The notes under the pieces were generated by a model. That model saw only the letters and a list, made by a program, of their open reading frames with translations, was not told the origin of the DNA and made no database searches. Positions 11,058-43,514 of a stretch of 46,120 nucleotides of DNA are shown here, piece by piece; positions within the stretch are counted from its first letter, which is position 1; every line of letters begins with the position of its first letter. The position numbers and the translations under genes are program-made. The stretch comes from an uncultured Bacteroidales bacterium (GTDB taxonomy: Bacteria; Bacteroidota; Bacteroidia; Bacteroidales; Bacteroidaceae): NCBI GenBank assembly GCA_902792555.1, contig CADAZW010000013.1, positions 1-46,120 on the forward strand. Reading direction: 5' to 3'.

Positions 11058-11246
11058 CGCGACAAGACAAAAAGAATCCGCGTCGAGAAAAGAAATAACC
11101 GCGTCAAAACGAAATTTTACCGCGTCAAGACAAAATCTAATCGCGTCAAGACAAAATCTAATCGCGCCAAGACGAAATCTAATCGCGCCGAACTGAAATC
11201 TAATCGCGCCGAAACGAAATCTAATCGCGCCGGGAACAGCCCTCCC
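11058..11246. repeat. CGCG 21-nt tandem array, locus A
   Basis: CGCG starts at 11058, 11079, 11100, 11121, 11142, 11163, 11184, 11205 and 11226: nine copies at exactly 21-nt spacing. The later units read approximately CTAATCGCGTCAAGACAAAA plus T, with changes mainly in the middle. Read on the opposite strand the unit is CGCGATTAGATTTCGTTTNG, which resembles arrays B and C. Further CGCG cores at 11249 and 11283 are out of register. Confidence 0.95.
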
Positions 11247-11387
11247 CTCGCGATTATTTTTTGGGAGTATGTGATTAGATTTCGCGACGACGGGATTACG
11301 CCGCGGAAACACGGGTTTAAAAGGCGCTACGGGCCACTCCCTCTATCCGGAAGGATGCCGCCTTGGCGGCAGGGGCGAAAAAGAGTA

Positions 11388-11612
11388 ACCAGTAATGCTG
11401 GAAAGGCTAGCCATACTAGAAAAACTAGAAAGACTAGTAATACTAGAGAGGCTAGTGATACTAGAAAAACCAGAGAGACTAGTATTGCTAGAAAGACTAG
11501 TAATACTAGAGAGGCTAGTTATGCTAGAAAGACCAGAGAGACTAGTATTGCTAGAAAGACTAGAAATACTAGAAAGACTAGAAAGGCTAGTAAAACCAAA
11601 AGAACCGGAATA
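11388..11612. repeat. CTAG-rich 9-nt tandem array
   Basis: Twenty-five consecutive 9-nt units of the form RCTAGNRRN fill this interval without a break in register. Of the 21 core units (11406-11594), 19 contain an exact CTAG and two contain CCAG. A higher-order period of 63 nt (seven units) is visible: ACCAGAGAGACTAGTATT occurs at 11469 and 11532, and ACTAGTAATACTAGAGAG at 11433 and 11496. Confidence 0.95.
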
Positions 11613-11645
11613 ACGCCCGATAAACCACGAATAGCCAAAAGACTC

Positions 11646-11673
11646 AGGGGTGGAGCCGCGCGGCTCCACCCCT
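11646..11673. terminator. Perfect 28-bp palindrome
   Basis: AGGGGTGGAGCCGC is followed directly by its exact reverse complement GCGGCTCCACCCCT. As RNA it would fold to a 12-bp GC-rich stem with a GCGC loop. It lies downstream of the second susD (minus strand), and a short T-rich run follows on that strand, so it may help end the large operon. Confidence 0.6.
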
Positions 11674-11688
11674 AAAGAGTAATTATTT

Positions 11689-11730
11689 CCTCCCGAGAGA
11701 AGAGAACTTCTCTCCTGCAAGAGAGGGAGG
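11689..11730 (-). terminator. Nested hairpin just after susD
   Basis: GAGAGAAG (11695-11702) and CTTCTCTC (11707-11714) form an 8-bp stem with a 4-nt loop. CCTCCC (11689-11694) can pair with GGGAGG (11725-11730) outside it. It begins 14 nt after the susD stop on the minus strand and is probably the first part of the operon's end structure. Confidence 0.5.
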
Positions 11731-11744
11731 CAGGTGCCCAGGCG

Positions 11745-14021
11745 CTACGGCATGGGCAGATACCAGTTGGTCTTGTCTTTCATCTTCGACTCGAGGTCCT
11801 TGTCCACCTCGGCGGCGGGATCGGTCACATTCTTGTTGCGACGGCCAATCTTCCATGCGAGCCACTCGGTGCCGTTGGTGCCAGCATCGCTCTTGTGCTC
11901 AGCGAAGCGGATGAGGTCGGTGAAGCGGTGGCCCTCGAAGGCTGTCTCAAGGGCATTCTCGTCAACGATGAGGTTCTCCACGGCATTGATGATGGTCTCC
12001 TTGTCAGTAACGAGGAGTGTGTCGCCGCTATAGAGAGTCTTGGCATAGTCCATCTGCTCCTCATAGGAGAGGCTGTTGGCGCGGGCATAGTCCTCGGCCA
12101 CCTTCTCGGCCACTTGGCGGGCATAGGTATAGACTGTGTCCTCAATGCCACCTATGTCACCGCAGCCGCGGCTATGAACGCCATAGCTTGCATAAGACTC
12201 CGACAAACCGGTGCTGCTCCAGATGGAGGCGTCAGAGAAGTCGAAGAACGGATACTTGGCCATATTGGCACGCTCCTCCTGAGAGAGATAGTACATACCG
12301 CCGGAGAGGGCTCTCGGGTCAAGCATATACTCTACCTCATACCAAGACTCCTGCACGCTCTCGGGAATGTCGGAGAGGGTGAGGGGATATCCCTCGCGGG
12401 GGTTAACCCAAATGGTGTCGCCCACAAAGAGGGTGTCGGTCTCAGTGGCATATACCACGGAGGTGGAGTCGGAAGTATAGTCAGCCTTGGCGCTCAGACC
12501 GTCGTTGACAACCTTGCCCACAAGGACAGCGGGAATGGTGTCCACGCGGATGAGGGTATCGGCCTCGGTGTCCATAATCTTCTCCAGTTTGGTAACCTCC
12601 TTGGCGATGTCGAGGTTGCCGATGGTAGGCATGTTCTCGGTGAAGAGGCCGTCCTTCAGGATACCAAAGGCGAGCTCGGGGAATCCGAGGCGGTTGACAG
12701 CCTCAGCATAGCGCAACAGCACCATGGTGTTGCGGTAGAACGGAATCTGATAGTTCTTGCGGAAGGAACCGTAGCGGATGTCAGAGCCGATATAAATGGC
12801 ACGCCAAGGCATAGCATACTTAGAGATGATATTGCTGCGGTTGCCATTGCGGAAGGTTACGTTGGGAGCCCATGCATAGCGGCGGCCGTCGCCACCGGCA
12901 TACTCCTCGCGCTTAAAGACGCCATTGTCGTCCTGGAAGGAGTTAAAACGCTGGGATTCGTTGAGGGAGATGTACTGATTGGAGGGAACGAGCTGCTGGT
13001 TCTGCTCATGGGCAGAGAGCGAGCCGCGCTCCATATAGAAGCCGGTTACATTCTGCAGTACATCGAGCACGCGGCCGTTGGCAGAAGTGGAGGCTCCGGT
13101 AGCAGCGGAGACAATCTCACCAACGCTGATACCATTCTCAGTAAGCGACGTATGTAGGTCATTGGAACTTACAACCTTGGACTCAACTCCGTCATGAGAG
13201 AACTTGAAGGCTATTGCACCAACAAGACCAGCAATCCAAGAAGGATTCTCCCTGGCCACATACTGATAGTAGTTATAATACTGAGTTGCAGCATTGACAT
13301 AGTCATTCTTCATCAGGTAGGCATCGCCCAGCACGAGCTGCACGGGGAAGAGGTTGGCCTGCGAGCTATAGGTGCCGCCGCCACCGCTGAAGCTGCCGTA
13401 GTCGGGCATGCCGAGGGCGTTCTGCAGCTCAAGGGCGCGGGTCAGACCGGCCTCAACAAGCATGTCAGCCAGATTGGCAGAGTTAACCCTGGGGGCGCTC
13501 TTCTGCAAGGCCTCAGCCTCGTTGGTGCTCATGACGGGAGCGGTAACGAAGGGCACCTCGCCATAGAGGCGAACCAACTGAGTGTAGGCCCAACCCCTCA
13601 TGGCCTGCACCTGTGCCCACTCGCGCTGCATGATCTTCACATTGTTCTGGGTGACGGTGGTGTCCACGTTGGCCAGATAGAAATTGCAGGAGTTGACTAC
13701 ATGGTAGAAGTCAGCCACGTTGAGCAGGGCGGAGGAGCCGTTTTCCGTCTCGCCGAAGTTGATGATGTTGCCAATAGAGTCGGTGGTATAGACGCCGTCG
13801 GTAACGAGGTCGCCGCGGCACTCACCCAGCAGCACTGTGCGCTCAGCCACATTCTGGATGCTGCGCAGCACGCCCAGTGCAGAATAGATGGAATCCTTGC
13901 CAAACTCCTTCTCGCTGGCGTAGCGTTCCAGGTCCGGTGTAAGCATGTCTTCGCATGAGGTTGTCAGCAGCATGGCTGACATTACGAAGGTCAAGAGCGA
14001 AAGGATTGATTTATTTTTCAT
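11745..14021 (-). CDS. SusD/RagB-type outer-membrane lipoprotein (second cassette)
   Basis: SusD-like proteins sit on the cell surface as the lid of a SusC channel and bind the ligand. The N-terminus has a lipoprotein signal ending in LLTTSC (Cys at residue 23). Helical repeats follow, and the C-terminal segment FEGHRFTDLIRFAEHK (about 715-730) is characteristic of the family. At 758 residues it is longer than the common 500-650, with extra material in the middle and before the C-terminus. Its SusC partner ends 12 nt upstream. The ligand cannot be read from sequence; no carbohydrate-active enzyme lies beside it. Confidence 0.9.
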   Translation of the reverse strand: MKNKSILSLLTFVMSAMLLTTSCEDMLTPDLERYASEKEFGKDSIYSALGVLRSIQNVAERTVLLGECRGDLVTDGVYTTDSIGNIINFGETENGSSALLNVADFYHVVNSCNFYLANVDTTVTQNNVKIMQREWAQVQAMRGWAYTQLVRLYGEVPFVTAPVMSTNEAEALQKSAPRVNSANLADMLVEAGLTRALELQNALGMPDYGSFSGGGGTYSSQANLFPVQLVLGDAYLMKNDYVNAATQYYNYYQYVARENPSWIAGLVGAIAFKFSHDGVESKVVSSNDLHTSLTENGISVGEIVSAATGASTSANGRVLDVLQNVTGFYMERGSLSAHEQNQQLVPSNQYISLNESQRFNSFQDDNGVFKREEYAGGDGRRYAWAPNVTFRNGNRSNIISKYAMPWRAIYIGSDIRYGSFRKNYQIPFYRNTMVLLRYAEAVNRLGFPELAFGILKDGLFTENMPTIGNLDIAKEVTKLEKIMDTEADTLIRVDTIPAVLVGKVVNDGLSAKADYTSDSTSVVYATETDTLFVGDTIWVNPREGYPLTLSDIPESVQESWYEVEYMLDPRALSGGMYYLSQEERANMAKYPFFDFSDASIWSSTGLSESYASYGVHSRGCGDIGGIEDTVYTYARQVAEKVAEDYARANSLSYEEQMDYAKTLYSGDTLLVTDKETIINAVENLIVDENALETAFEGHRFTDLIRFAEHKSDAGTNGTEWLAWKIGRRNKNVTDPAAEVDKDLESKMKDKTNWYLPMP

Positions 14022-14033
14022 CGTAATAGAATT

Positions 14034-17000
14034 TTACAGGTTAATAGTTACACCGAAGTTGAAGCTGCGCGAGCTGGGCAGCATGCCTGCGTCGATACCC
14101 TGATAGAGGGTGCCGTTGCCAACAGAGAACTCCGGATCGGAACCGGTGTACTTGGAGAGGGTAAACAGGTTGTTAGCCTCAGCCCATACGGCCAGACCCT
14201 GCAGCCATGAGAGGGAGAGGGGCAGATCGTAGGTGAGACGCACATTCTTGAGCTTGAGGAAAGAGCCGTCCTCAATCCAGCGGTCGGAGAAGCGCTCGTT
14301 GTTAACCCACTCGGAGGAGGAGGTGAGCACTGCGCGCGGAATGCTGGTAACCTGGCCGTCGTAAGTCCAGCGGTTGGCCATAGCGGAGGTCTGGTTCCAG
14401 AGGTTGTTGCCAGCCTCAAGCTGTGAGCGCTGATAGTTGAACACATCGTTGCCAAGCGAATACTTGAAGATCACGTCGAGGGTGAAGTGCTTCCAGTTGA
14501 GCGAGGTGAAGATGTTGCCATAGATATCGGGATTGGGGTCGCCAATCTCTACCATATCGGCCTCGGAGATCCAGCCGTCGCCGTTCTGGTCGATGAAGTG
14601 AACATCACCGGCCTTGAAGTTGCGGTAGGGATCGCCGGCAAAGCCGGTGGGATAGCGCAGATAGCCATACTTGCCTGCGGTGGAGGCAGTGGCATCGTCG
14701 GTGAAGATGCCATCGGTCTTAAATCCATAGAACACACCTGCTGCCTTGCCCTTGGCGGTGAGCACGTTGTTGGTGCCATAGATGGAGGAGGTGTAGCCCT
14801 GGATGGTCTGATAGACATCAGCCTTGGCGCCTGCTGCATCGAGGTTGTAGGTGGTGATGGTGGAAGCGGGTAGGCTGGAGATCTCGTTGGTGTAGTGACC
14901 GATGGAGAAGCCTGCCTTCCACTTGAAGTTCTTGGTGTTGAGCAGGATGAGGTTAGCGTTGATGTCGAAGCCCTTGTTGGTCATGGAGCCGGAGTTGGCC
15001 CACATGGAGGGCAGACCTGCCAGATAGTCGAGGTTAACCTTTGCCAGGAGGTTGGAGGTCTTGCTCCAGAAGAGGTTGACGCCCAGGTTGACGCGGTTGT
15101 CGAAGAGGCTGGTCTCCAGGCCTACGTTGAAGCGGCGGGTGGTCTCCCACTGAATCTTTGAGTTGGCGATGTTGGCCAGGTTGAGCGACGTAGCGCGGTC
15201 CAGATACTTCTGGTTGGCAAAGTAGGTACGCGAAGCGTAGTAGTCGATATTGTCATTACCGGACTCCTCGTAGCCTGCAGAGAGCTTGAGGAAGTTGACG
15301 GCTGAAGCGTCAAACCAAGGCTCGGAAGAGATGAGCCAGGCAGCCTGCAGTGAGGGGAAGAGGCCCCAGTTTACACCGAAGAGCTTGATGCCCTCCTTGG
15401 TGTTCTTGCCGAAGCGGGATGAGGACTCAGCGGTGAGGGTTCCGTTGACATAGTACTTGTTCTTGTAGTTGTAAGATGCGTCGAGGTAGTAGGCCATGTT
15501 GAGCCACTTGTCGTTGGTACCTCCGTAGGTGTGGTACTGGAGTGAGGGCGACATGTTAGGCATCTTATCGTTGGTGTTGTTGTAGGCGGAGATGAAGCTG
15601 TTAGAGAAGTTGTAGGAAGCCAGGCGGAATCCTGCAGTTGCCCTGAGGGCGTGAGCAGCCATCTTCTTGTCGAAGGTGAGGTAGAGATTGTTGAACACCG
15701 TTGACTCGTCGCCATAGAGGGTGCGCACTACGCTGGAGATGGTACCGATGCCCTCGGCATACTTATGTGGCGTGCCGTCGTAAGGCATGTAGTACATCTC
15801 AGATGTGCGGTTAACGATATAGCTGAAGCGGTCAGCCAACTGGAGGAAGGAGTTGATCTGGTAGCGAGGGTTGAAGTTGAGCGAGAACTGTGACTGCTCC
15901 TGGAAGTTCTTGTTGTCGCCATCGCCGTTGCGCAGAATCCAGTAGGGGTTGGCCGTAGCGTCGGTGCCGTAGTTGATACCGAAGCGGAAGGGGTTGTAGC
16001 TGTCGTTGTAGGTCTTGCCGGAGTACACATTGGGGTTGGGGCCCACCTTGTTGGAGCGGGTAGCCTCGTCCCAATAGATGAAGTACTCGGTCTTGCTGAT
16101 CATAGGAGCATCGATGAGACCCAGCACGTTGGGCGAAGAGATGTTGAACGAGCTATAGTCGGGAGCCCAACCGTTGTCGCGGAGGTTGTAGGTTACGCGG
16201 CCATAGGAGATGTCAACCGAAGCGTCGATGCGGCTGCTGAAGATAATATCGGTGTTGAAACGGATATTCAGGCGGCTGAAGTCGTTCTTCTTAGCGGTGG
16301 CATCCGACTCGGTGTAACCGAGCGACAGACCATAGAGGGCGATGTCATCACCACCCTGCACATTAACACGGTAGTTCTGGGTGAAGGCTGTCTTATAGAG
16401 ACCCTTCTGCCAGTTGGTGTTGTTGTGATAGAGGTCGTAGTAGGTATAGGAGGGATCCTCGTTCATGAACGGCTCGCCGGCAATGGCCTGCAGTGCAGAG
16501 GTAACGGAGCTACCGTCGCTGGGCTCGTAGGTACCGAGGATGCCAGTGAGGTAGTTGCGATACTGTGTGCCGTTGAGCACGTCGATGGTGTTGGGGCGGG
16601 TCTCAAAGCCGCCGTAGAGGCGAACATTGATGCGGGTGGCACGCTCCTTGGCACGCTTGGTGGTGATCTCAATCACACCGTTGGCGCCCTTGGCACCATA
16701 GATAGCTGTACCGGTGTTGAGCACGCGTACATTATCTATATCCTCAGGGTCAATGATGCTGAGCACATTATTGACGAAACCCTGGTGGGAGGTCGAGCGG
16801 TCGTACTGCATATCCCAAATCACGCCGTCAACCACGATGAGGGGCTGAGTGGTGGTGTTGAGTGAGGTGATACCGTTGATGAGCATGTTAGCTCCCTGGC
16901 CGGGCATGCCGCCACGCATGGTGGTGAATACGCTGGCATTGAGAGCGTTCTCAATGTCGGTCTCAACGGTGATGGCAGAGGAATTGTCCTTAGAGGCCTC

Positions 17001-17465
17001 GGCCTTGGTGAACACCTGGTTGGCAGACTTGTAGAAAGAGTTGAACACCGAGCTGTACATCATGGTGGTCTGCTCGTTGTCCCTCACAGGAATCTGCACG
17101 GGGTTGTAGTCAGGGGTAGAGATATAGAGGGTGGTAACAAACACTGGGATGGAAAGAGTGTAGGTACCGTCCTCGCCTGTCATGGCCGAATAGCGGGGAT
17201 CATTGAGCGACTGCACGCGCACACCAGCCAGGGGCTTGCGAGTGGCAGCATCAACGATGTAACCCTTCACCTCACGCATCTCGTAGGTGGGAGTCTTGGC
17301 GATAACAGGACGCTTGATCATCACTTCCTCCTGCTCTTCTACCACCTCTTCACCCTCAGTAACGTCGTCCTGAGCATAGAGGGGCGTAGCGCCGGCAAGG
17401 AAGAACAGGCTCAAGGCTAAGCCAAAAACCTTTCCGAATAGATTGTTGCTGATTATCTTTTTCAT
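14034..17465 (-). CDS. SusC-type TonB-dependent transporter (second cassette)
   Basis: This 1143-residue outer-membrane protein has a signal peptide (about 1-31, ending near PLYAQ) and an acidic spacer (DDVTEGEEVVEEQEE). A carboxypeptidase-D-like beta domain follows (REVKGYIVDAATRKPLAGV, about 63-125), then the TonB plug, with PLIVVDGVIWDM and the plug end ANGVIEITTKR. The 22-strand barrel fills the rest, and the chain ends in FNFGVTINL with a C-terminal hydrophobic residue, as barrel assembly requires. It imports a large ligand bound by its SusD partner, driven by TonB. The gene is intact, unlike the SusC of the first cassette. It follows the second FAS1 lipoprotein after 27 nt. Confidence 0.93.
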   Translation of the reverse strand: MKKIISNNLFGKVFGLALSLFFLAGATPLYAQDDVTEGEEVVEEQEEVMIKRPVIAKTPTYEMREVKGYIVDAATRKPLAGVRVQSLNDPRYSAMTGEDGTYTLSIPVFVTTLYISTPDYNPVQIPVRDNEQTTMMYSSVFNSFYKSANQVFTKAEASKDNSSAITVETDIENALNASVFTTMRGGMPGQGANMLINGITSLNTTTQPLIVVDGVIWDMQYDRSTSHQGFVNNVLSIIDPEDIDNVRVLNTGTAIYGAKGANGVIEITTKRAKERATRINVRLYGGFETRPNTIDVLNGTQYRNYLTGILGTYEPSDGSSVTSALQAIAGEPFMNEDPSYTYYDLYHNNTNWQKGLYKTAFTQNYRVNVQGGDDIALYGLSLGYTESDATAKKNDFSRLNIRFNTDIIFSSRIDASVDISYGRVTYNLRDNGWAPDYSSFNISSPNVLGLIDAPMISKTEYFIYWDEATRSNKVGPNPNVYSGKTYNDSYNPFRFGINYGTDATANPYWILRNGDGDNKNFQEQSQFSLNFNPRYQINSFLQLADRFSYIVNRTSEMYYMPYDGTPHKYAEGIGTISSVVRTLYGDESTVFNNLYLTFDKKMAAHALRATAGFRLASYNFSNSFISAYNNTNDKMPNMSPSLQYHTYGGTNDKWLNMAYYLDASYNYKNKYYVNGTLTAESSSRFGKNTKEGIKLFGVNWGLFPSLQAAWLISSEPWFDASAVNFLKLSAGYEESGNDNIDYYASRTYFANQKYLDRATSLNLANIANSKIQWETTRRFNVGLETSLFDNRVNLGVNLFWSKTSNLLAKVNLDYLAGLPSMWANSGSMTNKGFDINANLILLNTKNFKWKAGFSIGHYTNEISSLPASTITTYNLDAAGAKADVYQTIQGYTSSIYGTNNVLTAKGKAAGVFYGFKTDGIFTDDATASTAGKYGYLRYPTGFAGDPYRNFKAGDVHFIDQNGDGWISEADMVEIGDPNPDIYGNIFTSLNWKHFTLDVIFKYSLGNDVFNYQRSQLEAGNNLWNQTSAMANRWTYDGQVTSIPRAVLTSSSEWVNNERFSDRWIEDGSFLKLKNVRLTYDLPLSLSWLQGLAVWAEANNLFTLSKYTGSDPEFSVGNGTLYQGIDAGMLPSSRSFNFGVTINL

Positions 17466-17492
17466 TGTGTACTATTTTTTAAGTTTGTTGGC

Positions 17493-19277: not shown

Positions 19278-19328
19278 AACTAAATGTATTTTTTTGCGGT
19301 AATATTATTAGTCTGTTTTAATCAGTCA

Positions 19329-21155: not shown

Positions 21156-21174
21156 ATTTCCTGATGTTTTGAGT

Positions 21175-24544: not shown

Positions 24545-24556
24545 AGTTGCACTAAT

Positions 24557-27808: not shown

Positions 27809-27976
27809 TAATGAAAGGAAAGCAGGCTCCCCCACAAGACAGCGGCTTTCTGTGTCCGCCGGCATGCACCCAGGGACATTAAAGAGCATTGCCAGTCCGG
27901 GCAGAAAAATCCCTACCCCGACCTCATACCCCAGCAAGCAGACCGCACCCACTCCAATAGCAAGGGCGCAGACTTT

Positions 27977-28193
27977 CGTCACAAGAAAACGGACTTTCGT
28001 CGCGAGAAACATGACTTTCGTCGCGCAGAGCCCGAATTTTGTCGCGAGAAACCTGAAATTAATCGCGCAGAGCCTGAATTTAATCGCGCAGAGCCTGAAA
28101 TTTAATCGCGATCAAATTTCCGTTAAATCGCGATTAGATTTCCGTTTAGTCGCGATTAGATTTCCGTTAAATCGCGAACAGATTTCAAAGCGC
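27977..28193. repeat. CGCG 21/22-nt tandem array, locus B
   Basis: CGCG starts at 28001, 28022, 28043, 28064, 28085, 28107, 28129, 28151 and 28173, and a degenerate copy lies at 27980. The spacing is 21 nt up to 28085 and then 22 nt. The first modules carry GACTTTCGTCGCG, the middle ones CCTGAAATTAATCGCG, and the last ones CGCGATTAGATTTCCGTT. Unit content thus changes in order along the array. Confidence 0.95.
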
Positions 28194-29201: not shown

Positions 29202-29280
29202 TCTGTCTTAAAAAACGTCTCTTTTGCATCAAAAAGCACAAAAAAGTCCCTCTTTTGTGTAACCTACCATAAAAAATGCC

Positions 29281-29288: not shown

Positions 29289-29328
29289 CATATTGATACC
29301 TGCCTATACGAAGCAGGACTCCACGATA

Positions 29329-31059: not shown

Positions 31060-31070
31060 CTCCTTTTTTT
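31049..31070 (+). terminator. Intrinsic terminator of psd-pssA-DUF4834
   Basis: AGGAGCT and AGCTCCT form a perfect 7-bp stem with a GT centre, followed by a run of T at 31064-31070. The TAG stop of the DUF4834 gene (31057-31059) sits in the centre and second arm. Confidence 0.9.
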
Positions 31071-31090
31071 GTTGGAGGTCAGCAAAAACT

Positions 31091-31127
31091 CTAGTACTAG
31101 AGAGACTAGTAAGACTAGTGAGACTAT
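31091..31127. repeat. Short CTAG 9-nt array beside fmt
   Basis: CTAG occurs at 31091, 31097, 31106 and 31115, and CTAT at 31124, with a 9-nt step over the last four positions. The unit (ACTAGNRAG) is the same as in the long array at 11388-11612. The fmt stop codon (31124-31126) is part of the last unit. Confidence 0.85.
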
Positions 31128-32089: not shown

Positions 32090-32134
32090 ATAAATATTGC
32101 CAACCTCCCTGTCCTTTAATTATTAATTATCCTT

Positions 32135-33898: not shown

Positions 33899-33911
33899 TA
33901 GCCTTTGCTCC

Positions 33912-34499: not shown

Positions 34500-34502
34500 C
34501 AC

Positions 34503-36068: not shown

Positions 36069-36084
36069 TGATTATTCTTTTTTT

Positions 36085-36129
36085 ATAGTGGCGATAGTAA
36101 CTATAGTAATTATAGTTCCTATAGTTTTT
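36085..36129. repeat. Short ATAGT 9-nt array between rfbD and prfC
   Basis: ATAG occurs at 36085, 36094, 36103, 36112 and 36121, an exact 9-nt step. The unit is approximately ATAGTNNNT and resembles the CTAG arrays with CTATAG in place of CTAG. It fills most of the 67-nt gap between the rfbD stop and the prfC start. Confidence 0.85.
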
Positions 36130-36135
36130 TCAGCG

Positions 36136-37002: not shown

Positions 37003-37006
37003 AGCA

Positions 37007-37555
37007 TTAAAATTCCAGTGACTCTTCCTTATCCTTTTTATAATAATCGCTCAAACTGCCGAGAAAGGCAGACACGGTCTCCACTGCCTTGGCAGTATCG
37101 GCGCTTATCTCATGCTTCTGCATCTTGAGCAGCATCACTCCGTAGAGCATCTCGAAGCAAGTCTCAAGCTCAGAGTGCTCATCAGCATCACCCTGCTTGG
37201 CGCGCAACTCCACAATGAGTGGCAGCACCTTATAGTAGGCAGCATGGTAGTAGGGATACTTCTGCGAATCCATAAGTCTCCGGTGCAGATCGGTAAGATT
37301 GATTATCACGTTACGGCAAATCTGCATATGGCCCTTTGCCGTCACGCCCTCGCTGCGCATCATCTCGATGATGTCGGCATACCACTGGCGCAACTCTTGC
37401 TGCTGCTCGGCTGTCAGATTGTCGAAACGCGACAGATAGTTATCGTAAAGTTTGTCGATATCCAAGCCGAAGGCCCTGACGAGGTCCTCCACCTGCCACA
37501 TATAAATAAGGTATTCGGCTATATTCTCTGCCCTGAGTTTTTTTGCGACAAACAT
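37007..37555 (-). CDS. DUF4924 family protein
   Basis: This 182-residue, mainly helical cytoplasmic protein matches DUF4924, a family found in Bacteroidetes (N-terminus FVAKKLRAENIAEYLIYMWQ). It has many charged residues, no signal peptide and no membrane segment. The function is unknown. It lies 21 nt after the LysE-type gene and 4 nt before rfbD, so it is part of the same transcript. Confidence 0.75.
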   Translation of the reverse strand: MFVAKKLRAENIAEYLIYMWQVEDLVRAFGLDIDKLYDNYLSRFDNLTAEQQQELRQWYADIIEMMRSEGVTAKGHMQICRNVIINLTDLHRRLMDSQKYPYYHAAYYKVLPLIVELRAKQGDADEHSELETCFEMLYGVMLLKMQKHEISADTAKAVETVSAFLGSLSDYYKKDKEESLEF

Positions 37556-37576
37556 ATCTCCTCTCTCCTTACTCTC

Positions 37577-38227
37577 TTAATACCAATGCAGGCCGGTGAT
37601 GGTGAAAACAAATCCCGCAATGGCGGCGGCAATCACTATGGATCCGATGGTAATATTAAGACAGCGGATGTATTTGTCGCTGAAAGCATTGCGAATCTTA
37701 TTGATAACAAAAGAGAGGAAGAACCACCACAGCATGGCACCCACAATGATGGCCAGAAAGCCGAAGCCCATGTTGATAGGAAGGTCGGGGGTGATGAAGT
37801 CGAAGCGCGCAAACAGCACCAGGAACAGCAGGATGATAAGCGGATTGGAGAAGGTAAGAAGGAAGGCGGTGAGGAAGTTGTTGAGGAATGTCTTGTCCTG
37901 CGAAACCCTCACGTCATGCTTCTTGGGGCGGCTCAGCAGCATAAAGAGTCCAAACACCAGCAGCATGGCGCTACCCGCCAGCTGCATTATCAGTTTGTTG
38001 CTCTCATTCTTCACAAACTCAGTCACGAAGCTCATGCCTAATCCCGACACCAGCGCATAGATTATGTCGCTCAGCGCGGCACCCATGCCCGTGATTATGC
38101 CGAAACGGAAGCCCTTCTTCAGCACACGCTGGATACATAGCACACCAACCGGTCCGCACGGCGCGGAACATATCACGCCGATAAACAAACCTTTAATAAT
38201 TACTAAAACGAGTGCTATTAAATCCAT
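37577..38227 (-). CDS. LysE-type amino-acid/metabolite exporter
   Basis: This 216-residue inner-membrane protein has about six hydrophobic helices and the family pattern GLFIGVICSAPCGPVGVLCIQRVLKKG near the start, equivalent to the GxxPGP segment of LysE/RhtB exporters, followed by GMGAALSDIIYALV. The substrate is unknown. An upstream ATG at 38320 would add 31 residues, but a -7 box lies inside that stretch (38281-38288), so the ATG at 38227 is preferred. It heads the seven-gene series that ends with fmt. Confidence 0.85.
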   Translation of the reverse strand: MDLIALVLVIIKGLFIGVICSAPCGPVGVLCIQRVLKKGFRFGIITGMGAALSDIIYALVSGLGMSFVTEFVKNESNKLIMQLAGSAMLLVFGLFMLLSRPKKHDVRVSQDKTFLNNFLTAFLLTFSNPLIILLFLVLFARFDFITPDLPINMGFGFLAIIVGAMLWWFFLSFVINKIRNAFSDKYIRCLNITIGSIVIAAAIAGFVFTITGLHWY

Positions 38228-38280
38228 AACAAGGTGCAAATTTGCCACTTTTTTTTGGAATAAGCCCCCCGCAAGGGCCA

Positions 38281-38288
38281 CAAATGTA
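38281..38288 (-). promoter_or_regulatory. -7 promoter box of the LysE-type gene
   Basis: On the minus strand this reads TACATTTG, an exact match to TAnnTTTG. CAAA at 38311-38314 (TTTG on the minus strand) lies 22 nt upstream. Confidence 0.65.
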
Positions 38289-38351
38289 ATATTCGCTCCC
38301 TCTGCCAACACAAAAAGCAAAAGTTTGCGCCATTTTGCCGACAGAAAACAC

Positions 38352-38359
38352 TACCTTTG
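38352..38359 (+). promoter_or_regulatory. -7 promoter box of the DUF486 gene
   Basis: TACCTTTG is an exact -7 box, 24 nt before the ATG. TTTG at 38324-38327 is a possible -33 element at slightly long spacing (24 nt). It is divergent from the LysE promoter. Confidence 0.65.
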
Positions 38360-38383
38360 CACGCCGAATAAAAAAACTCTCTC

Positions 38384-38752
38384 ATGTCAGCACTATACAC
38401 TATCATCTTGCTTATCATCTCCAACACTTTCATGACCCTTGCCTGGTACGGCCACCTCAAACTGCAGCAGACCGGCCGCATAAGCCACTGGCCGCTGATA
38501 GGCGTAATCCTGTTTTCGTGGTTCATCGCCCTGGCCGAATATATGTGCCAGGTGCCTGCCAACCGCATAGGATTCCGCGAAAACGGAGGCCCCTTTTCGC
38601 TAATGCAGCTGAAGGTGATTCAGGAGGCCCTCTCGCTCATAGTGTTTACAGTGATAGCTACATTCATGTTTCGCGGCGAGCAGCTGCAGTGGAACCACGT
38701 GGTGGCATTCTTCTGCATAATGCTGGCCGTTTTCTTCGCCTTCCTGAAATAG
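38384..38752 (+). CDS. DMT-like membrane protein, DUF486 family
   Basis: This 122-residue protein has four hydrophobic helices and matches DUF486 (NTFMTLAWYGHLK, then SWFIALAEYMCQVPANRIG and FSLMQLKVIQEALSL), a small family related to drug/metabolite transporters that probably works as a dimer. The substrate is unknown. It forms a single-gene unit with its own promoter, divergent from the LysE-type exporter, so two putative exporters share one control region. Confidence 0.88.
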   Translation: MSALYTIILLIISNTFMTLAWYGHLKLQQTGRISHWPLIGVILFSWFIALAEYMCQVPANRIGFRENGGPFSLMQLKVIQEALSLIVFTVIATFMFRGEQLQWNHVVAFFCIMLAVFFAFLK

Positions 38753-38833
38753 GCGCAATTGGCGCCCAACGCCCCTTTTTTTGCAGAAAAAAACACATCC
38801 TTAGTCACAAAAAGGTTGTTTTTCTAAAAAAAA

Positions 38834-38865
38834 TTTGGTCGTTTCAGGAAAAAAGCGTTTCTTTG
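38834..38865 (+). promoter_or_regulatory. Promoter of the ECF sigma factor gene
   Basis: TTTG at 38834-38837 and TTTCTTTG at 38858-38865 (one mismatch to TAnnTTTG) are separated by 20 nt, the ideal spacing. The start codon follows after 91 nt, so the leader is long. Confidence 0.6.
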
Positions 38866-38956
38866 CACCGAATTTACAACCCATATCTTACTAACAACAC
38901 TAAAAAACTATTGCCTATCGGATTGACATTACTCTAAATTTTCATTTTACAAAGTA

Positions 38957-39550
38957 ATGATTAAATTCCAAGCCCTGACTGACGACGAACTGGTCAGTCT
39001 TTATGCAGAAGGCAATAACACGGCTTTTGACGTCCTGCTGAGCAGGTATCAGTCAAAGCTTTATTCTTATATCTTTTATATTGTACACGACGAGGAAGTG
39101 GCCAACGATCTCTTTCAAGACACTTTCCTCAAGGTCATCATGCGCATACAAGACGGCAGCTACACCGGCTACGGAAAATTCCAGGCATGGCTTACGCGCA
39201 TTGCCCACAACCTGGTGATGGACTATTTCCGCGACAAGGAGCAAGCCCTCACCATCTCCAACGACGAGGCCGACTATGACCTGCTCAACAATGCACGCCT
39301 GGCCGAGCACACCACTGAGGACCAGATGCTCGTGAGCCAGTCGCTCAAGGACGCCAAAGCCATTATGGACCTCCTGCCCGAGCCGCAGAGCGAGGTTGTC
39401 AAGATGCGATTCTACGACAATATGTCCTTCAAGGAGATAGCCGAGAAACTCAACATCAGCATCAATACAGCCCTTGGGCGCATGCGCTATGCCGTCATCA
39501 ATATGCGCAACATTGCCCAGGAGAAAAACATCGCTCTCTACGCAGAATAA
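38957..39550 (+). CDS. ECF-type RNA polymerase sigma factor
   Basis: This 197-residue protein has sigma region 2 at about 22-90 (FDVLLSRYQSKLYSYIFYIV, LFQDTFLKVI, FQAWLTRIAHNLVMDYFRD) and region 4 at about 135-185 (LPEPQSEVVKMRFYDNMSFKEIAEKLNISINTALGRMRYAV), which recognise the -10 and -35 elements. No anti-sigma (FecR-like) gene follows, unlike sigma factors that control SusCD loci, so it is probably a stand-alone housekeeping or stress sigma factor. Confidence 0.93.
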   Translation: MIKFQALTDDELVSLYAEGNNTAFDVLLSRYQSKLYSYIFYIVHDEEVANDLFQDTFLKVIMRIQDGSYTGYGKFQAWLTRIAHNLVMDYFRDKEQALTISNDEADYDLLNNARLAEHTTEDQMLVSQSLKDAKAIMDLLPEPQSEVVKMRFYDNMSFKEIAEKLNISINTALGRMRYAVINMRNIAQEKNIALYAE

Positions 39551-39592
39551 AAAAATATTTTATGCTCCGCATAATATAGTGGCATTTCTTGC

Positions 39593-39615
39593 GTTATAGT
39601 AATGTACCCTATAAC
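39593..39615. promoter_or_regulatory. Inverted repeat before the 40-codon ORF
   Basis: GTTATAG (39593-39599) and CTATAAC (39609-39615) are perfect inverted repeats with a 9-nt centre, 5 nt before the small ORF. This could be an operator or an RNA hairpin over the ribosome-binding region. Confidence 0.45.
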
Positions 39616-39620
39616 ACAAA

Positions 39621-39743
39621 ATGCCTATGAATGAAACTTTACGCTCAGAAATCTGCCCCCGTCCGGAAACCCTTGCCTTACTAAGATTTGCTGCCCGAGT
39701 AATGCAGCGCAGTGACAACCACAACGACATCTGCAGAGCCTAA
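39621..39743 (+). CDS. Small ORF (40 codons) after the sigma factor
   Basis: ATG at 39621 (or 39627) opens a frame of 40 codons ending in TAA, reading MPMNETLRSEICPRPETLAL and continuing to CRA. The protein has no signal peptide or membrane helix. Small proteins in this position, with a similar NETLR...C...ETLA start, seem familiar from other Bacteroidales, but I cannot confirm this without a search. It lies 70 nt after the sigma factor stop and may be co-transcribed. Confidence 0.45.
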   Translation: MPMNETLRSEICPRPETLALLRFAARVMQRSDNHNDICRA

Positions 39744-39773
39744 GAGCCTGCTTCCCGACGAACAAAGCAGACA

Positions 39774-39814
39774 CAAAGAAAAACGGCCCTGAAAGCTTCA
39801 CGCCTTCAGGGCCG
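39774..39814 (-). terminator. Intrinsic terminator of trxA
   Basis: CGGCCCTGAA (39784-39793) and TTCAGGGCCG (39805-39814) form a 10-bp GC-rich stem with an 11-nt loop. On the minus strand it is followed by TTTTTCTTTG. It begins 31 nt after the trxA stop. Confidence 0.88.
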
Positions 39815-39845
39815 CATTGTCTTTCATTGCGCGTCTGCCAGCGGG

Positions 39846-40160
39846 CTAGAGCAATGCCTGAATCTTCTCCTCCACAACGGCGGGAGTAACGGCGCCGACA
39901 ACCTTGTCGACCACCTGGCCGTCCTTCAGGAAAAAGATGGCGGGAATGTTGCGTATGCCAAACTTGGCCGTCAGATCATCGTTCTCGTCCACATTGCAGG
40001 AGCCGATAATCACCTTGCCGTCGTACTTCTTGGCAAATTCCTCAATCACGGGGGCCATCTTGCGGCAGGGACCACACCACTCAGCGGAGAAATCCACCAC
40101 CATAGGCTTACCCTGGGCCACGAAGGCGTCGTAGTTCTGATCGGTAATGTTGAAATCCAT
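39846..40160 (-). CDS. trxA: Thioredoxin
   Basis: This 104-residue cytoplasmic protein is a small disulfide reductase of normal thioredoxin length. The active site WCGPCRK has Cys29 and Cys32, preceded by VVDFSAE, and the cis-Pro is in IRNIPAIFFLKDG (about 73-85). No signal peptide is present. It has its own promoter and terminator. Confidence 0.97.
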   Translation of the reverse strand: MDFNITDQNYDAFVAQGKPMVVDFSAEWCGPCRKMAPVIEEFAKKYDGKVIIGSCNVDENDDLTAKFGIRNIPAIFFLKDGQVVDKVVGAVTPAVVEEKIQALL

Positions 40161-40197
40161 AGTCTTTTCGTTTTAAATGTTGTTGGTATTGCGGCGA

Positions 40198-40205
40198 CAA
40201 AATTA
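40198..40205 (-). promoter_or_regulatory. -7 promoter box of trxA
   Basis: On the minus strand this reads TAATTTTG, an exact TAnnTTTG, 37 nt before the trxA ATG. No clear -33 element is visible. Confidence 0.6.
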
Positions 40206-40241
40206 CGCATTTGTTTTCAAACAGCCGCCCTGCCCCGCCTA

Positions 40242-41264
40242 TTATTTGAGGTCGGAGTATTTACGTTTTCTCTTGACATAGTATGCCCACAGCAGGCAGC
40301 GCGGCCGCTGCTCGGCGATGCGGGTGACCGTGGCGGCCTCCATATTCTGTCGGCGCTGACTGTCAAACTCATGCCTGATGTGGGAATATTCAAACCGGGC
40401 CCTCACCACTGCCAGGGCCTCCTTGCGTCTGCCGCCAAGCAGCATCTGCAGGGCTGCCAGGTAGTCAAGGAAATAGCGCGCGGCGAGCACCGAGGTGCGA
40501 CGGCCGTCAGGCAGATTCTTATAGAGCATCAGCAGATTGTTGCGGAAATTGAGGAATGTCTTGCGGGGGTTGCTCTTGTCAAGAGTGGCGCCGCCCAAGT
40601 GATAGACCACGCTATCGGGCACGCACCACACGCCGTAGCCGCGACTCTTGAGGCGCCAACACAGGTCTATCTCCTCCTGATGGGCAAAGAAGCGGGCGTC
40701 AAGGCCTCCCACCTTATTATATACGCGCGTGCGCACGAGGAGAGCGGCTCCTGTGGCCCAGAACACCGGCACGGGGGCGCCGTCATACTGGCCCTCGTCC
40801 TTCTCCACGTCGCTCATCACTCGGCCGCGGCAGTAGGGATAGCCCAGCGAATCGAGAAACCCGCCGCAAGCGCCGGCATACTCAAACATCTCCTTATGAT
40901 TGTAGTTGCGCAGTTTGGGCTGACAGGCGGCCGCCTCGGGATGGGCCTCCATAAACTCCAGCAGGGGCGTCAGCCATCCGGGCGTGACCTCCACATCACT
41001 GTTGAGCAGCAGGGTGTAGGGAGTCTCCACCTGTGCCAGGGCCTTATTGTAGCCCTCGGCAAAACCATAGTTGCGGTCGAAGGCCATTATCTCCACCGAG
41101 GGAAACTCCTCGCGCAGCATCTCGAGCGAATTGTCGGTGCTGCCATTGTCGGCCACTATCACGGCGGCCTCGGGCGAGTGCTCCACCACCGAGGGGAGGA
41201 AGCGGCGCATCATCTCGGCGCCGTTCCAGTTAAGGATTATGACTGAAATCTGTTTCACACTCAT
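40242..41264 (-). CDS. Family 2 glycosyltransferase
   Basis: This 340-residue enzyme has the GT-A fold of GT2: VIILNWNGAEMM (8-19), ADNGSTDNSLEML (38-50), the metal-binding LLLNSDVEVTPGWL, and the later QEEIDLCWRLKSRGYGVW with the catalytic acidic residue. The last part is basic (YVKRKRKYSDLK). No membrane helix is clear; it probably works at the cytoplasmic face. GT2 enzymes of this rhamnosyltransferase-like type build cell-surface glycans; donor and acceptor are unknown. It stands alone behind mtaB on the minus strand. Confidence 0.9.
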   Translation of the reverse strand: MSVKQISVIILNWNGAEMMRRFLPSVVEHSPEAAVIVADNGSTDNSLEMLREEFPSVEIMAFDRNYGFAEGYNKALAQVETPYTLLLNSDVEVTPGWLTPLLEFMEAHPEAAACQPKLRNYNHKEMFEYAGACGGFLDSLGYPYCRGRVMSDVEKDEGQYDGAPVPVFWATGAALLVRTRVYNKVGGLDARFFAHQEEIDLCWRLKSRGYGVWCVPDSVVYHLGGATLDKSNPRKTFLNFRNNLLMLYKNLPDGRRTSVLAARYFLDYLAALQMLLGGRRKEALAVVRARFEYSHIRHEFDSQRRQNMEAATVTRIAEQRPRCLLWAYYVKRKRKYSDLK

Positions 41265-41283
41265 TGATTGTAAATTGAAAACG

Positions 41284-41291
41284 CAAAGTTA
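41284..41291 (-). promoter_or_regulatory. -7 promoter box of the glycosyltransferase gene
   Basis: On the minus strand this reads TAACTTTG, an exact TAnnTTTG, 19 nt before the start codon, so the leader is very short. Confidence 0.6.
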
Positions 41292-41306
41292 GGAAAAAAT
41301 CCTCAT

Positions 41307-41350
41307 TTCCAATTCCTAATTCCTAATTTCTCATTCCTAATTCCTAATTT
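41307..41350. repeat. Short ATTCCTA 7-nt array after mtaB
   Basis: ATTCCTA-like units recur with a step of 6-8 nt (TTCC at 41307, 41313, 41320, 41334 and 41341). The mtaB stop (41344-41346) is formed by the last unit. This is a different unit from the 9-nt arrays but sits in a similar place. Confidence 0.75.
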
Positions 41351-42675
41351 CCCTCCACCGTTTCCCCAATCAGGGCGCTCCCGTCGGCATTGAAGCCCGT
41401 GAGGCGGTAGCCGACCACGGCATTGTCGGGCTGCGGAGCCGCCGCGGCGGGTACCTCCACGTGGATATAGTTGTCGGTAAAGCCCTTGGCAGCCAAGCCC
41501 TGATGGCTGTGCTCGGTCAGCACTGGACGCACCTGGCCGATGTGGCGGGCATAAAAGTCCTTGCGCTTCTGCTCAGAGAGAGCTATGAGCCGTTGACTGC
41601 GCTCGTGCTTGACGGCCTCGTCCACCTGATGGGGAATACGCAATGCCGCCGTGCCCGGGCGCTCGGAATAGCTGAAGACATGAAACTGCGACACATCGAT
41701 GCTCCGGGCAAAGGCATAGCTCTCCTCAAAGAGAGCGTCGGTCTCGCCGCGGGTGCCCACAATTATGTCGACGCCTATAAAGCAGTCGGGCATCACCTTC
41801 TTAATATATTCCACGCGCGAGGCAAAGAGGCCGGTGTCATAGCGGCGGTGCATCAGCCGCAGCACCTCGTCGCTGCCGCTCTGCAGGGGGATGTGGAAAT
41901 GGGGCATAAAGTGGCTGCTCCGGGCGCAGTAGTCGATTATCTGCTCCGTCAGCAGATTGGGCTCAATCGACGAGATGCGATAGCGCTCGATACCCTCCAC
42001 CCGGTCCAGCGCCTTGACGAGATCGAAAAAAGTCTCACCGGTGCTCTTGCCGAAATCGCCGATATTCACTCCAGTGATGACAATCTCCCGGCCACCCCTC
42101 CTGGCGGCATCCTCTGCCTGGCTGACTATGCTGGCAATGCTGCCGTTGCGGCTGCGGCCTCGGGCCAGGGGTATGGCGCAGTAGGTGCAGAAATAGTCGC
42201 AGCCGTCCTGCACCTTGAGGAAGAAGCGCGTGCGCTCGCCGCTGGAGCAGGAGGGCATGAAGGTGCGTATGTCCTTGCGGTCCACCTCCTCGTAGCGGTG
42301 AAGCCTTGCGCCGTCAACGCGCTGACCGAAGGCTTCTATTATCATCTCAGCCGCCCGAGCCTTGTGCTCCATGCTGATCACGAGGTCCACGCCCGTCATC
42401 TCGGCTATCTGTCGCGCCGCCAGCTGGGCATAGCAGCCCATCACCACCATCATGGCACCGGGATGCTCGCGCAGGGCGCGGTTGATGGCCTGGCGGCACT
42501 TATGGTTGCTGGTCTCGGTCACGGTGCACGTGTTCACCACGCAGATGTCGGCCTTCTCTCCCCTGCCCACACGCCTCACGCCGGCGACCTCCAGCCGGTC
42601 AGCCAGCGAGGAAGTCTCCGCAAAATTGAGCTTGCAGCCCAGGGTAATGTATAAAGCCTTAGTATCCTGCATCAT
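41344..42675 (-). CDS. mtaB: MtaB-type tRNA t6A37 methylthiotransferase
   Basis: This radical-SAM enzyme converts t6A37 of tRNA to ms2t6A37. The protein (about 443 residues) shows the N-terminal UPF0004 domain (ALYITLGCKLNFAETS with its first cluster Cys, then VVNTCTVT and MGCYAQL), the radical-SAM CxxxCxxC motif in GCDYFCTYCAIPLARG, and a C-terminal TRAM-like domain. The longer frame from 42780 is rejected because a full promoter (42708-42738) lies inside it; the adjacent ATGs at 42675 and 42672 are the likely starts. A YrdC/Sua5 protein that makes the t6A precursor is also in the window. Confidence 0.92.
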   Translation of the reverse strand: MMQDTKALYITLGCKLNFAETSSLADRLEVAGVRRVGRGEKADICVVNTCTVTETSNHKCRQAINRALREHPGAMMVVMGCYAQLAARQIAEMTGVDLVISMEHKARAAEMIIEAFGQRVDGARLHRYEEVDRKDIRTFMPSCSSGERTRFFLKVQDGCDYFCTYCAIPLARGRSRNGSIASIVSQAEDAARRGGREIVITGVNIGDFGKSTGETFFDLVKALDRVEGIERYRISSIEPNLLTEQIIDYCARSSHFMPHFHIPLQSGSDEVLRLMHRRYDTGLFASRVEYIKKVMPDCFIGVDIIVGTRGETDALFEESYAFARSIDVSQFHVFSYSERPGTAALRIPHQVDEAVKHERSQRLIALSEQKRKDFYARHIGQVRPVLTEHSHQGLAAKGFTDNYIHVEVPAAAAPQPDNAVVGYRLTGFNADGSALIGETVEGN

Positions 42676-42707
42676 AAAAAGACCGTCATAACGGCTAATT
42701 TGAAACG

Positions 42708-42738
42708 CAAAGTTAGCATTTTTTTGTAATCTGGCAAA
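42708..42738 (-). promoter_or_regulatory. Promoter of mtaB
   Basis: On the minus strand TTTG (42735-42738) and TAACTTTG (42708-42715) are separated by 19 nt, a complete Bacteroidetes promoter. It ends 32 nt before the start codon at 42675. Confidence 0.8.
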
Positions 42739-42826
42739 ATGGCCGAAAAAAAATTTCTCGATTTTATTGCTGAATGTCAACGAGTTACAAAAAAGTTACA
42801 TTTTTTAGCATAAAAAAAAGCATGAT

Positions 42827-42860
42827 TTTGTTTGTACTTTCAAAAAAGTGCGTACCTTTG
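42827..42860 (+). promoter_or_regulatory. Promoter of the small lipoprotein gene
   Basis: TACCTTTG at 42853-42860 is an exact -7 box. TTTGTTTG at 42827-42834 offers -33 elements at spacers of 22 or 18 nt. The gene's codon choice suggests strong expression. Confidence 0.75.
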
Positions 42861-42910
42861 CACTCGGTTTTAATAAAACAATATTGTTTAACTCTAACTA
42901 AGACAAGAAA

Positions 42911-43081
42911 ATGAAGAAGCTTTTATTCGCTTTCGTTGCTCTCGCAGCTATGTCTTTCGCTTCTTGCGGCAACGCACAGAAGGGTCAGGCTACCGACTCT
43001 GTTCAGGACAGCACCGTTGACACCACCGCTGTTGACACCGTAGCTGCTGACACTGTAGCTGCTGACACTGTTCAGGCTTAA
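42911..43081 (+). CDS. Small secreted lipoprotein, 56 residues
   Basis: ATG at 42911 opens a 56-codon frame to TAA at 43079-43081. The start MKKLLFAFVALAAMSFASCG is a clear lipoprotein signal with Cys19 as the lipidated residue. The mature peptide has only about 38 residues, no Lys or Arg beyond one Lys near its start, and short repeats of VDTTA, VDTVA, ADTVA and ADTVQA. Codons are strongly biased to GCT, GTT, GAC and ACC, unlike neighbours, as in highly expressed genes. It has its own promoter and terminator. The function is unknown; an abundant small surface or periplasmic lipoprotein is the best guess. Confidence 0.88.
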   Translation: MKKLLFAFVALAAMSFASCGNAQKGQATDSVQDSTVDTTAVDTVAADTVAADTVQA

Positions 43082-43109
43082 TCTTAGCGAATTAACTAAG
43101 AGAGATTGA

Positions 43110-43138
43110 AACCTGCGGATTTATCCACAGGTTTTTTT
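43110..43138 (+). terminator. Intrinsic terminator of the small lipoprotein gene
   Basis: AACCTGCGGA and TCCACAGGTT pair (one mismatch) around a TTTA loop, followed by a T-run at 43132-43138 and further T-rich sequence. Confidence 0.92.
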
Positions 43139-43214
43139 ATTTTTTCTATCGCAGGGCAGTCTGCATCCATAGCATAAGGCACCCTTCTCCATCGCGAGCG
43201 GACCAGAAGAAACA

Positions 43215-43310
43215 CCGTACGCACGACCCGGAAATGCGTGAAGAAAGTACTGAAAAGCGTAAAGAAAGTACTGAAATTCACGAAAAGAAATCCGAAGTCC
43301 GTGCGTGCGG
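43215..43310. repeat. Inverted repeat enclosing 21-nt direct repeats
   Basis: CCGTACGCACGAC (43215-43227) pairs with GTCCGTGCGTGCGG (43297-43310) over 13 bp with one bulged C and one G-T pair. The 69-nt interior has AAGAAAGTACTGAAA at 43241 and again 21 nt later at 43262, and a degenerate third copy near 43285. It could fold as a long RNA stem or be a dispersed repeat. Confidence 0.7.
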
Positions 43311-43331
43311 CGTTTTTTGCTGTCAATAAGC

Positions 43332-43349
43332 AAGTTAAAGCCGCTGGCG
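43332..43349 (+). repeat. Shared 18-nt upstream motif, copy 2
   Basis: AAGTTAAAGCCGCTGGCG matches the copy at 29184-29201 in 16 of 18 positions, in the same orientation relative to the next gene. Confidence 0.5.
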
Positions 43350-43360
43350 CTGAATTTTTC

Positions 43361-43514
43361 TGCGAGAAGATTAAAAGTGAATCGCGATTAACTGGAAATT
43401 TAATCGCGATTTAATTTCCGTTAAATCGCGATTAAATTTCAATTTCCGCGCGACTAATTTCAGGCTTCGCGCAACGAAAGTCAAGATCTACGCGAAAAAA
43501 GTCAGGCTCCGCGG
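43361..43514. repeat. CGCG 21/22-nt tandem array, locus C
   Basis: CGCG cores lie at 43383, 43405, 43427, 43447/43449, 43468, 43491 and 43510, with a TGCG at 43361. Spacing is 22 nt at first and then irregular (19-23). The first half contains ATTTCCGTTAAATCGCGAT, which is also in array B. Read on the minus strand the order of modules (GACTTTCG, then CCTGAAATTA, then AATTTAATCGCGAT) is that of array B, so C is an inverted relative. Confidence 0.9.

Follow-up and report, generated by a model that had tools for sequence, protein, structure and literature searches.

A high-copy family of intergenic, dyad-centred arrays of 21- and 22-nt units in a Bacteroidaceae genome

Introduction

Three intergenic arrays of short, CGCG-containing units lie in a stretch of 46,120 nucleotides (nt) from an uncultured Bacteroidales bacterium of the family Bacteroidaceae (contig CADAZW010000013.1, assembly GCA_902792555.1; this whole stretch is hereafter the window), and the question they raise is what kind of element they represent. 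A sequence-only reading of the window had taken them as members of one dispersed repeat family, possibly a protein-binding or regulatory array or a transcribed repeat RNA; its interpretation is partly supported by the analysis reported here. The arrays belong to a high-copy family in which arms of tandem units face each other in opposite orientation about a centre predicted to form a hairpin. The family is intergenic, with a bias towards gaps between convergent genes, its unit variants are ordered, and its unit number changes at orthologous sites.

The genome holding the window (G000) is a 2.29-Mb draft of 145 contigs, 80.5% complete, in which the window is contig C13. Repeats were followed into a sister species (G016; ∼90% protein identity, draft 86% complete) and a second congener (G002). 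Labels beginning with G, C and L denote genomes, contig numbers of a draft and fetched loci, respectively. In all, 88 arrays were fetched (67 from G000, 20 from G016 and one from G002), each on an exact match to the 14-mer CGCGATTARATTTC, to the 12-mer CGCGATTARATT or to a two-unit pattern, a sample that is not random. A stem with a CCCG core at C7:32290 was excluded, and loci L070 and L133 were reassigned by hand to the 22-nt form described below. Genes around the arrays were called with a simple codon-usage caller written for this analysis.

Results

The 14-mer occurs exactly 98 times in G000, where its reversed control occurs 0 times, and the 12-mer 245 times, as expected from the earlier surmise that three arrays in one contig imply many in the genome. 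Arrays sought in relatives were found in G016 (19 exact 14-mers and 71 exact 12-mers) and, as a trace, in G002 (two exact 14-mers); the 14-mer gave 0 matches in the 16 other genomes among the 19 of the genus that were examined. The two-unit tandem pattern matched three of 399 genomes of the family. In the GTDB r220 contig collection, which possibly does not include the window's own genome, 14 stretches matched, all of them from RUG13363 (13) or RGIG3638 (1). A scan of the phylum with the 14-mer returned, besides G000, three places in two of 117 genomes, which was taken as chance level, and viral contigs gave 0 matches to the two-unit pattern. Several contig ends of G000 coincide with arrays or have one close by (e.g. 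C56:130, C69:112, C82:67 and C102:37), and in such positions the arrays bear on the assembly of the draft.

The architecture of the family emerged from the spacing and strand of the units. Neighbouring units on the same strand were 21 nt apart in 113 of 134 cases and 22 nt apart in 13, the other eight distances being 42, 43, 63 or 142 nt. Exact 12-mers were present on both strands in 22 of the 88 arrays, and in all 22 the minus-strand units came first, which defines a dyad whose arms hold several units each. Across the centre of these 22 arrays the step was 31 nt (12 arrays), 30 nt (5), 52 nt (4; one extra degenerate unit) or 8 nt (1; a shared CGCG). Among the 79 arrays labelled as the 21-nt form at that stage, 63 showed a recognisable centre with an opposite arm of degenerate sequence, the centre measuring 19 nt in 58 elements, 18 nt in four and 17 nt in one. 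The consensus of this form runs from (GAAATCTAATCGCGCC)n through CCGAAACTGACCATCTCTG or similar to CGCGATTAAATTTTTTCTTCTCGCAATAA, and past the stem the opposite arm of the 63 elements reads CGCGATTAAATTTTTTCTT, resembling a stem followed by a U-tract. The 22-nt form is built of units such as GAAATTTAATCGCGATTTAACG, each nearly palindromic. The sequence-only reading missed the units on both strands, the dyad, the hairpin centre and the existence of two forms, as well as the convergent-gene bias and the ordered variants described below. Its rejection of clustered regularly interspaced short palindromic repeats (CRISPR) stands: the units here follow each other every 21–22 nt with no unique spacers and are inverted about a centre.

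The arms fade outwards. The CGCG core was present in 62/63, 58/63, 49/63, 21/62 and 10/62 elements for units 1 to 5, and no sharp common end was found among the 63 elements, the fading extending over four to five units of the left arm and 90 nt of the right arm, with repeats farther out undetectable.

Other sequences were seen beside the arms. At L007, L037, L040, L041, L058 and L061 the arrays adjoin another dispersed sequence, GCCGCCAAGGCTCTCAGATTTCC...GGACCGCGCTTG..., and the flanks carry units with AAAGCC in place of the CGCG core, the 21-nt step being kept. At the outer ends of L039, L046, L047, L055 and L059, units of ∼21 nt of the TTCGACAGGCTCAGCAT type or the reverse TATGCTGAGCCCGTCGAAG type are attached.

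None of the 88 arrays lies inside a called gene, in agreement with the idea of a single dispersed intergenic family. Gene context could be classified for 66 of them, 15 being excluded for lack of a flanking gene and seven for being too distant from one. When the arrays were mapped relative to gene ends, as had been proposed from the sequence, the 21-nt form proved to favour gaps between convergent genes (28/55 arrays, a count that includes orthologous array pairs); a further 10 lay between divergent genes, and tandem gene pairs held two groups of eight and nine that differ in arm orientation. Among 116 background gaps of at least 100 bp at the same loci, 16 were convergent, 33 divergent and 67 tandem, so that the convergent excess is significant (P = 5 × 10–7); it persisted in G000 alone (20/41, P = 2 × 10–5). 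The 11 classified arrays of the 22-nt form comprised five divergent, four tandem and two convergent cases. A preference of this form for divergent gaps was not supported, since 5/11 did not differ significantly from the 33/116 of the background (P = 0.30); the one comparison to give P = 0.03 was that of the 22-nt form with the 21-nt form.

Unit variants occupy set positions. On the opposite arm of the 21-nt form, unit +1 reads CGCG (G at position 4 in 54/63) and unit +2 reads CGCA (A in 26/39, versus 9/63 in unit +1). The variant CAAAACTAAT of the innermost left unit, present in 7/63 elements, was seen only at that position among the five commonest variants of each position. In the 22-nt arrays the outward order ATT, ACT, ACA, ACG was followed by 97 concordant versus three discordant pairs in 11 arms, and the outer, non-ATT classes alone gave 21 versus two (P = 0.001); for this test the classes were typed by hand, most innermost CGCGATTTAACGG units were omitted, and AAA and ATA units were left unranked. 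Growth in place from one unit would let the outer units decay differently at each locus. The same order of variants at different loci suggests instead that units may be copied in blocks.

The two arms also appear to change together. Across 58 elements, three of the 22 stem pairs tested covaried (17–29, P = 0.002; 18–28, P = 0.004; 14–32, P = 0.022). At L120 AAGAGCC-type letters take the place of the TCGCG core in both arms, in mirror image. At L141 (G016:C2, ∼50.6 kb), the ortholog of L048, a palindromic mosaic of ∼600 bp is built of 21-nt units of several sequence families, among them CTCAGTG-type units that are mirrored from one arm to the other. Both mirror images were read by eye.

Comparison with G016 showed how the arrays turn over. 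Ten array sites of G000 were found with both flanks in the G016 DNA examined. At five of them (L051, L057, L068, L088 and L127) G016 has a recognisable array with another number or sequence of units; at the L048 site it has a different mosaic, and at the L130 site the flanks are 1674 bp apart in G016 and 637 bp in G000. The G016 sequence before dnaE holds what appears, on reading, to be a degenerate remnant, and there is no array in G016 at the L032 and marR sites, where the flanks are too different to place exact ends or a target duplication. The G016 stretches were mostly fetched for holding arrays, so the proportion of shared sites is inflated; where a site fell on a G016 locus that had been fetched for another reason (L145, L165 and L256), an intact array was found in 0/3.

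Within the window itself, the 14-mer with up to three mismatches gave 21 matches, 19 of them inside the three arrays, against a mean of 5.82 and a maximum of 14 in 100 shuffles. The arrays are therefore real and lie about where they had been placed, except that array 2 begins at about 27971 (not 27977) and array 3 reaches about 43525 (by eye). Their parts are as follows.

11054–11229, minus strand: array 1, repeated arm of 21-nt units, the last three with exact CGCGATTAGATTTC on the minus strand
11230–11248, no strand: array 1, 19-nt centre, the loop region of the dyad, from the stem-loop and the match to the centre pattern
11249–11300, plus strand: array 1, opposite arm, with CGCGATTATTTTTT followed at 11270 by TGTGATTAGATTTC, a second degenerate unit, from inverted repeats
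27971–28096, minus strand: array 2, outer units changing stepwise towards the centre, from GACTTTCGTCGCG through GAATTTTGTCGCG to GAATTTAATCGCG
28097–28120, no strand: array 2, central 24-nt palindrome, one CGCG being common to a minus-strand and a plus-strand unit
28121–28193, plus strand: array 2, 22-nt units
43350–43394, minus strand: array 3, outer units, within a 57-nt inverted repeat without spacer (43350–43463)
43395–43440, no strand: array 3, central dyad, for which a perfect 21-bp stem closed by a 4-nt loop is predicted
43441–43525, plus strand: array 3, outer units in the order CGCGACTAATTTC, CGCAACGAAAGTC, CGCGAAAAAAGTC, the last unit by eye

Array 1 is of the 21-nt form, and arrays 2 and 3 have 22-nt units centrally and 21-nt units farther out. 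Units are carried by both strands, and arrays 2 and 3 are palindromic, with axes inside 28097–28120 and near 43417. In array 1 a 35-nt stem-loop at 11222–11256 matches the centre pattern with one mismatch on one strand and three on the other. Its predicted folding is modest (z = –1.8 and –1.7); a strong hairpin is predicted for array 2 (z = –4.2) and for a 63-nt stretch of array 3 (–25.8 kcal/mol, z = –6.55). The window gave 0 Rfam matches at gathering score. The neighbours of array 1 are convergent, a gene for a DNA/RNA non-specific endonuclease and a SusD-like gene; those of array 2 are divergent, a fasciclin-domain gene and a gene for a MarR-type regulator; array 3 lies between a short, lipoprotein-like frame (read by eye) and dnaE.

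Three other repeats of the window were recorded. Beside array 1, at 11391–11598, units of 9 nt (ACTAGAAAG and variants) form another array, which has higher periods of 18, 27, 45 and 63 nt. Just before array 3, at 43231–43277, the 21-nt direct repeat pair GAAATGCGTAAAGAAAGTACT has the same period and an unrelated sequence. A 7-nt TCCTAAT repeat at 41300–41352 has a higher period of 21 nt.

Discussion

To the reading that best accommodates these observations we assign about even chances: the family would be a noncoding, non-autonomous element present between genes in high copy, a minisatellite arranged around a dyad, similar to a miniature inverted-repeat transposable element (MITE) or a repetitive extragenic palindromic (REP) sequence and lacking sharp ends. 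Each element consists of a centre predicted to form a hairpin, flanked by arms whose 21- or 22-nt units face in opposite directions. Blocks of units would be copied between loci through recombination, gene conversion or the action of an unspecified transposase, and unit number would change through slippage. Elements would survive mainly between convergent genes, the least harmful place, and a gene followed by the T-rich arm may also have its transcription terminated by the hairpin. The complementarity of the two arms would be kept by template switching at the quasi-palindrome during replication. Template switching at quasi-palindromes is known in Escherichia coli and other organisms. As described in one account (PMC8794818), it makes hairpin arms complementary and is described as a mutation, not as a source of a dispersed repeat family.

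Several points weigh against this explanation. Neither an insertion intermediate nor a target duplication was seen, and no transposase could be tied to the family, although no search for IS5-type transposases was made. A purely selfish element does not predict the even spacing of arrays in G000 described below. The ordering test rests on hand-chosen arms, one from each of 11 arrays. As to the covariation, when the partner was slid by +1 the excess for the inner pairs was 15.2, compared with 17.4 in register, and the near equality of the two makes covariation on its own weak evidence; the high value of the slid register probably comes from GGG/CCC, AAA/TTT and similar runs. Stem-pair covariation is also inflated by relatedness among the sequences, and the pairs 19–27, 20–26 and 21–25 did not covary in the 58 elements. 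The mirrored unit changes of L120 and L141, read by eye, are more telling of symmetry than covariation is.

A possible though less probable explanation is that the arrays form a chromosome-organising or regulatory platform. A protein would bind each dyad-symmetric unit, the spacing of two helical turns would let neighbouring molecules co-operate, and arrays would recur at intervals; the sequence would drift between species together with the protein while the period stays. The suggestion in the sequence-only reading that the cores lie on one face of the helix agrees with the 21-nt spacing and less well with the 22-nt units, which at 10.5 bp per turn would drift by ∼1 bp per unit, a matter of arithmetic. 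The platform is favoured by the predominance of periods 21–22 in relatives. Tandem Repeats Finder was run on stretches from 14 other genomes of the genus and 10 other genera, picked by contig number or by their dnaE or marR genes and ignoring repeats; arrays outside long open frames were counted as noncoding. Periods of 21–22 nt accounted for 32 of 54 noncoding arrays in the genus (885 kb) and eight of 14 in the other genera of the family (312 kb), compared with 1/4 in other families of the class (165 kb), 0/0 in the rest of the phylum (164.5 kb) and 0/1 in E. coli (200 kb), all small samples. The density, 40 such arrays in 1197 kb versus one in 529.5 kb of controls, differed significantly (P = 6 × 10–6). 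At least 2.5 copies were present in 26 of the 40 (22/32 in the genus, 4/8 in the other genera); many of the others have only about two copies, which speaks against a platform.

The sequences of these units mostly differ among genomes, so the length of the unit may be conserved even as its sequence changes. The units of 21–22 nt were more often dyad-symmetric than shuffles (P < 0.05 in 8/32, versus 0/56 for other periods); families recur in that count, and with one unit per recognised family the figure was 5/24 (binomial P = 0.006). One genome of the genus, G009, has AAATTCTTATAAGAATTT at 172 places with up to two mismatches, and none of 18 other genomes has it at more than one, so this palindromic 22-nt family is dispersed and specific to G009. 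The mosaic at L141 includes AAAATTCCTAAGTAATTTTC, which is similar to the G009 family.

The spacing of arrays along the chromosome is the one result that leans towards an architectural role. On 18 contigs of G000 (within C1–C48), the arrays listed define 22 neighbour gaps of 7.9–39.7 kb, with a median of ∼16 kb. None is shorter than 7.5 kb, where 8.2 would be expected at random and 7.1 or 5.7 under intergenic or mostly convergent nulls (P ≤ 0.0005), and the coefficient of variation of the gaps is low as well (P ≤ 0.0065); positions were typed by hand for these tests, the parameters of the structured nulls were guessed, and later contigs are incomplete. G016 shows the same trend short of significance (11 gaps, one of them <7.5 kb; P = 0.06–0.16, with the size of G016:C16 assumed). 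Even spacing could moreover arise without function, through recombination purging nearby arrays. No candidate binding protein is known, and the lack of the 14-mer in 16 of 19 genus genomes means that the sequence is not essential.

It is unlikely that the arrays are primarily transcription terminators or mRNA-end hairpins placed between convergent genes. The convergent enrichment and the strong hairpins predicted for arrays 2 and 3 fit that role, as does the stem-loop followed by a T-run in the consensus of the 63 elements. In tandem gene pairs, though, the T-rich arm runs along the genes in eight cases and against them in nine, and for this lack of polarity a strand-specific terminator was rejected. 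Ten of the 55 arrays lie between divergent genes, array 1 folds only modestly, a consensus scan of 10950–11760 reports no terminator there, and arms of several units are left unexplained.

Among known systems, the BOX elements of Streptococcus pneumoniae resemble these arrays in being modular and intergenic, with internal units that vary in number and a hairpin predicted for them; their modules are larger and distinct, and organism and sequence are unrelated. In the open-access literature on intergenic 21–23-nt repeats, REP sequences and their associated tyrosine transposases (RAYT), Bacteroidetes minisatellites and template switching, BrickBuilt was the sole close match recognised. This MITE of Porphyromonas gingivalis is described as always intergenic and made of 23-nt tandem units without spacers; one strain has 19 copies, strains differ in the number of units, and translation products are unlikely (PMC4596501). 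Its leader and tail carry terminal inverted repeats like those of insertion sequence (IS) IS5, and filled and empty sites differ by small target duplications (PMC4596501). The family described here shares with it the order Bacteroidales and intergenic, multi-copy, spacer-less tandem units (21 or 22 nt versus ∼23 nt) in variable number. It differs in its central inversion, its fading arms, in which no leader or tail with terminal repeats was seen, its higher copy number (67 G000 arrays fetched) and its unit, the published BrickBuilt unit AGAYCATARTATCCTCTCRTRTG being different when compared by eye, no aligner being used. Intergenic minisatellite elements are the nearest known kind and BrickBuilt the closest of them, the central inversion and fading arms setting the G000 arrays apart.

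REP elements of the GTAG and CGTC families, as described (PMC3733652), are single palindromes of 20–40 bp with a tetranucleotide tag, often with a RAYT gene. The present arrays resemble them in being palindromic, high-copy and intergenic, between convergent and unidirectional genes, and differ in their tandem arms and in that no Y1 transposase was found in G000. Spread by a specific transposase, acting on IS-type terminal repeats or of the RAYT kind, is very unlikely, even though the family is multi-copy, intergenic and lineage-specific, as BrickBuilt is (PMC4596501). The arms fade outwards with no sharp end, and the Y1 transposase domain PF01797, present in four of the 19 genus genomes, gave 0 matches in G000 and G016; on these grounds a Y1/RAYT transposase was rejected as the mover, with the reservation that drafts 81% and 86% complete make such an absence weak. 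Hardly credible is a repetitive small protein, for although 21 nt equals seven codons and both strands of array 1 are open, the frame is broken by 22-nt units, by centre steps of 30–31 nt and by the inversion, and no array lies in a called gene, so coding repeats were rejected.

Beyond the minisatellite reading, the family-wide survey allows a broader proposal, which we regard as quite unlikely: that Bacteroidaceae carry satellite-like arrays in which constraint acts on dyad symmetry and on a unit length of two helical turns while sequence turns over between species, their even spacing marking chromosome segments for a co-evolving DNA-binding protein, in parallel to the fast-evolving satellites of centromeres. 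If unit length is conserved and sequence is not, this would point to a measurable physical constraint, such as a protein footprint, helix phase or a replication step. With G016 at ∼90% protein identity and orthologous arrays in different states, the growth, copying and symmetry of such DNA are directly observable.

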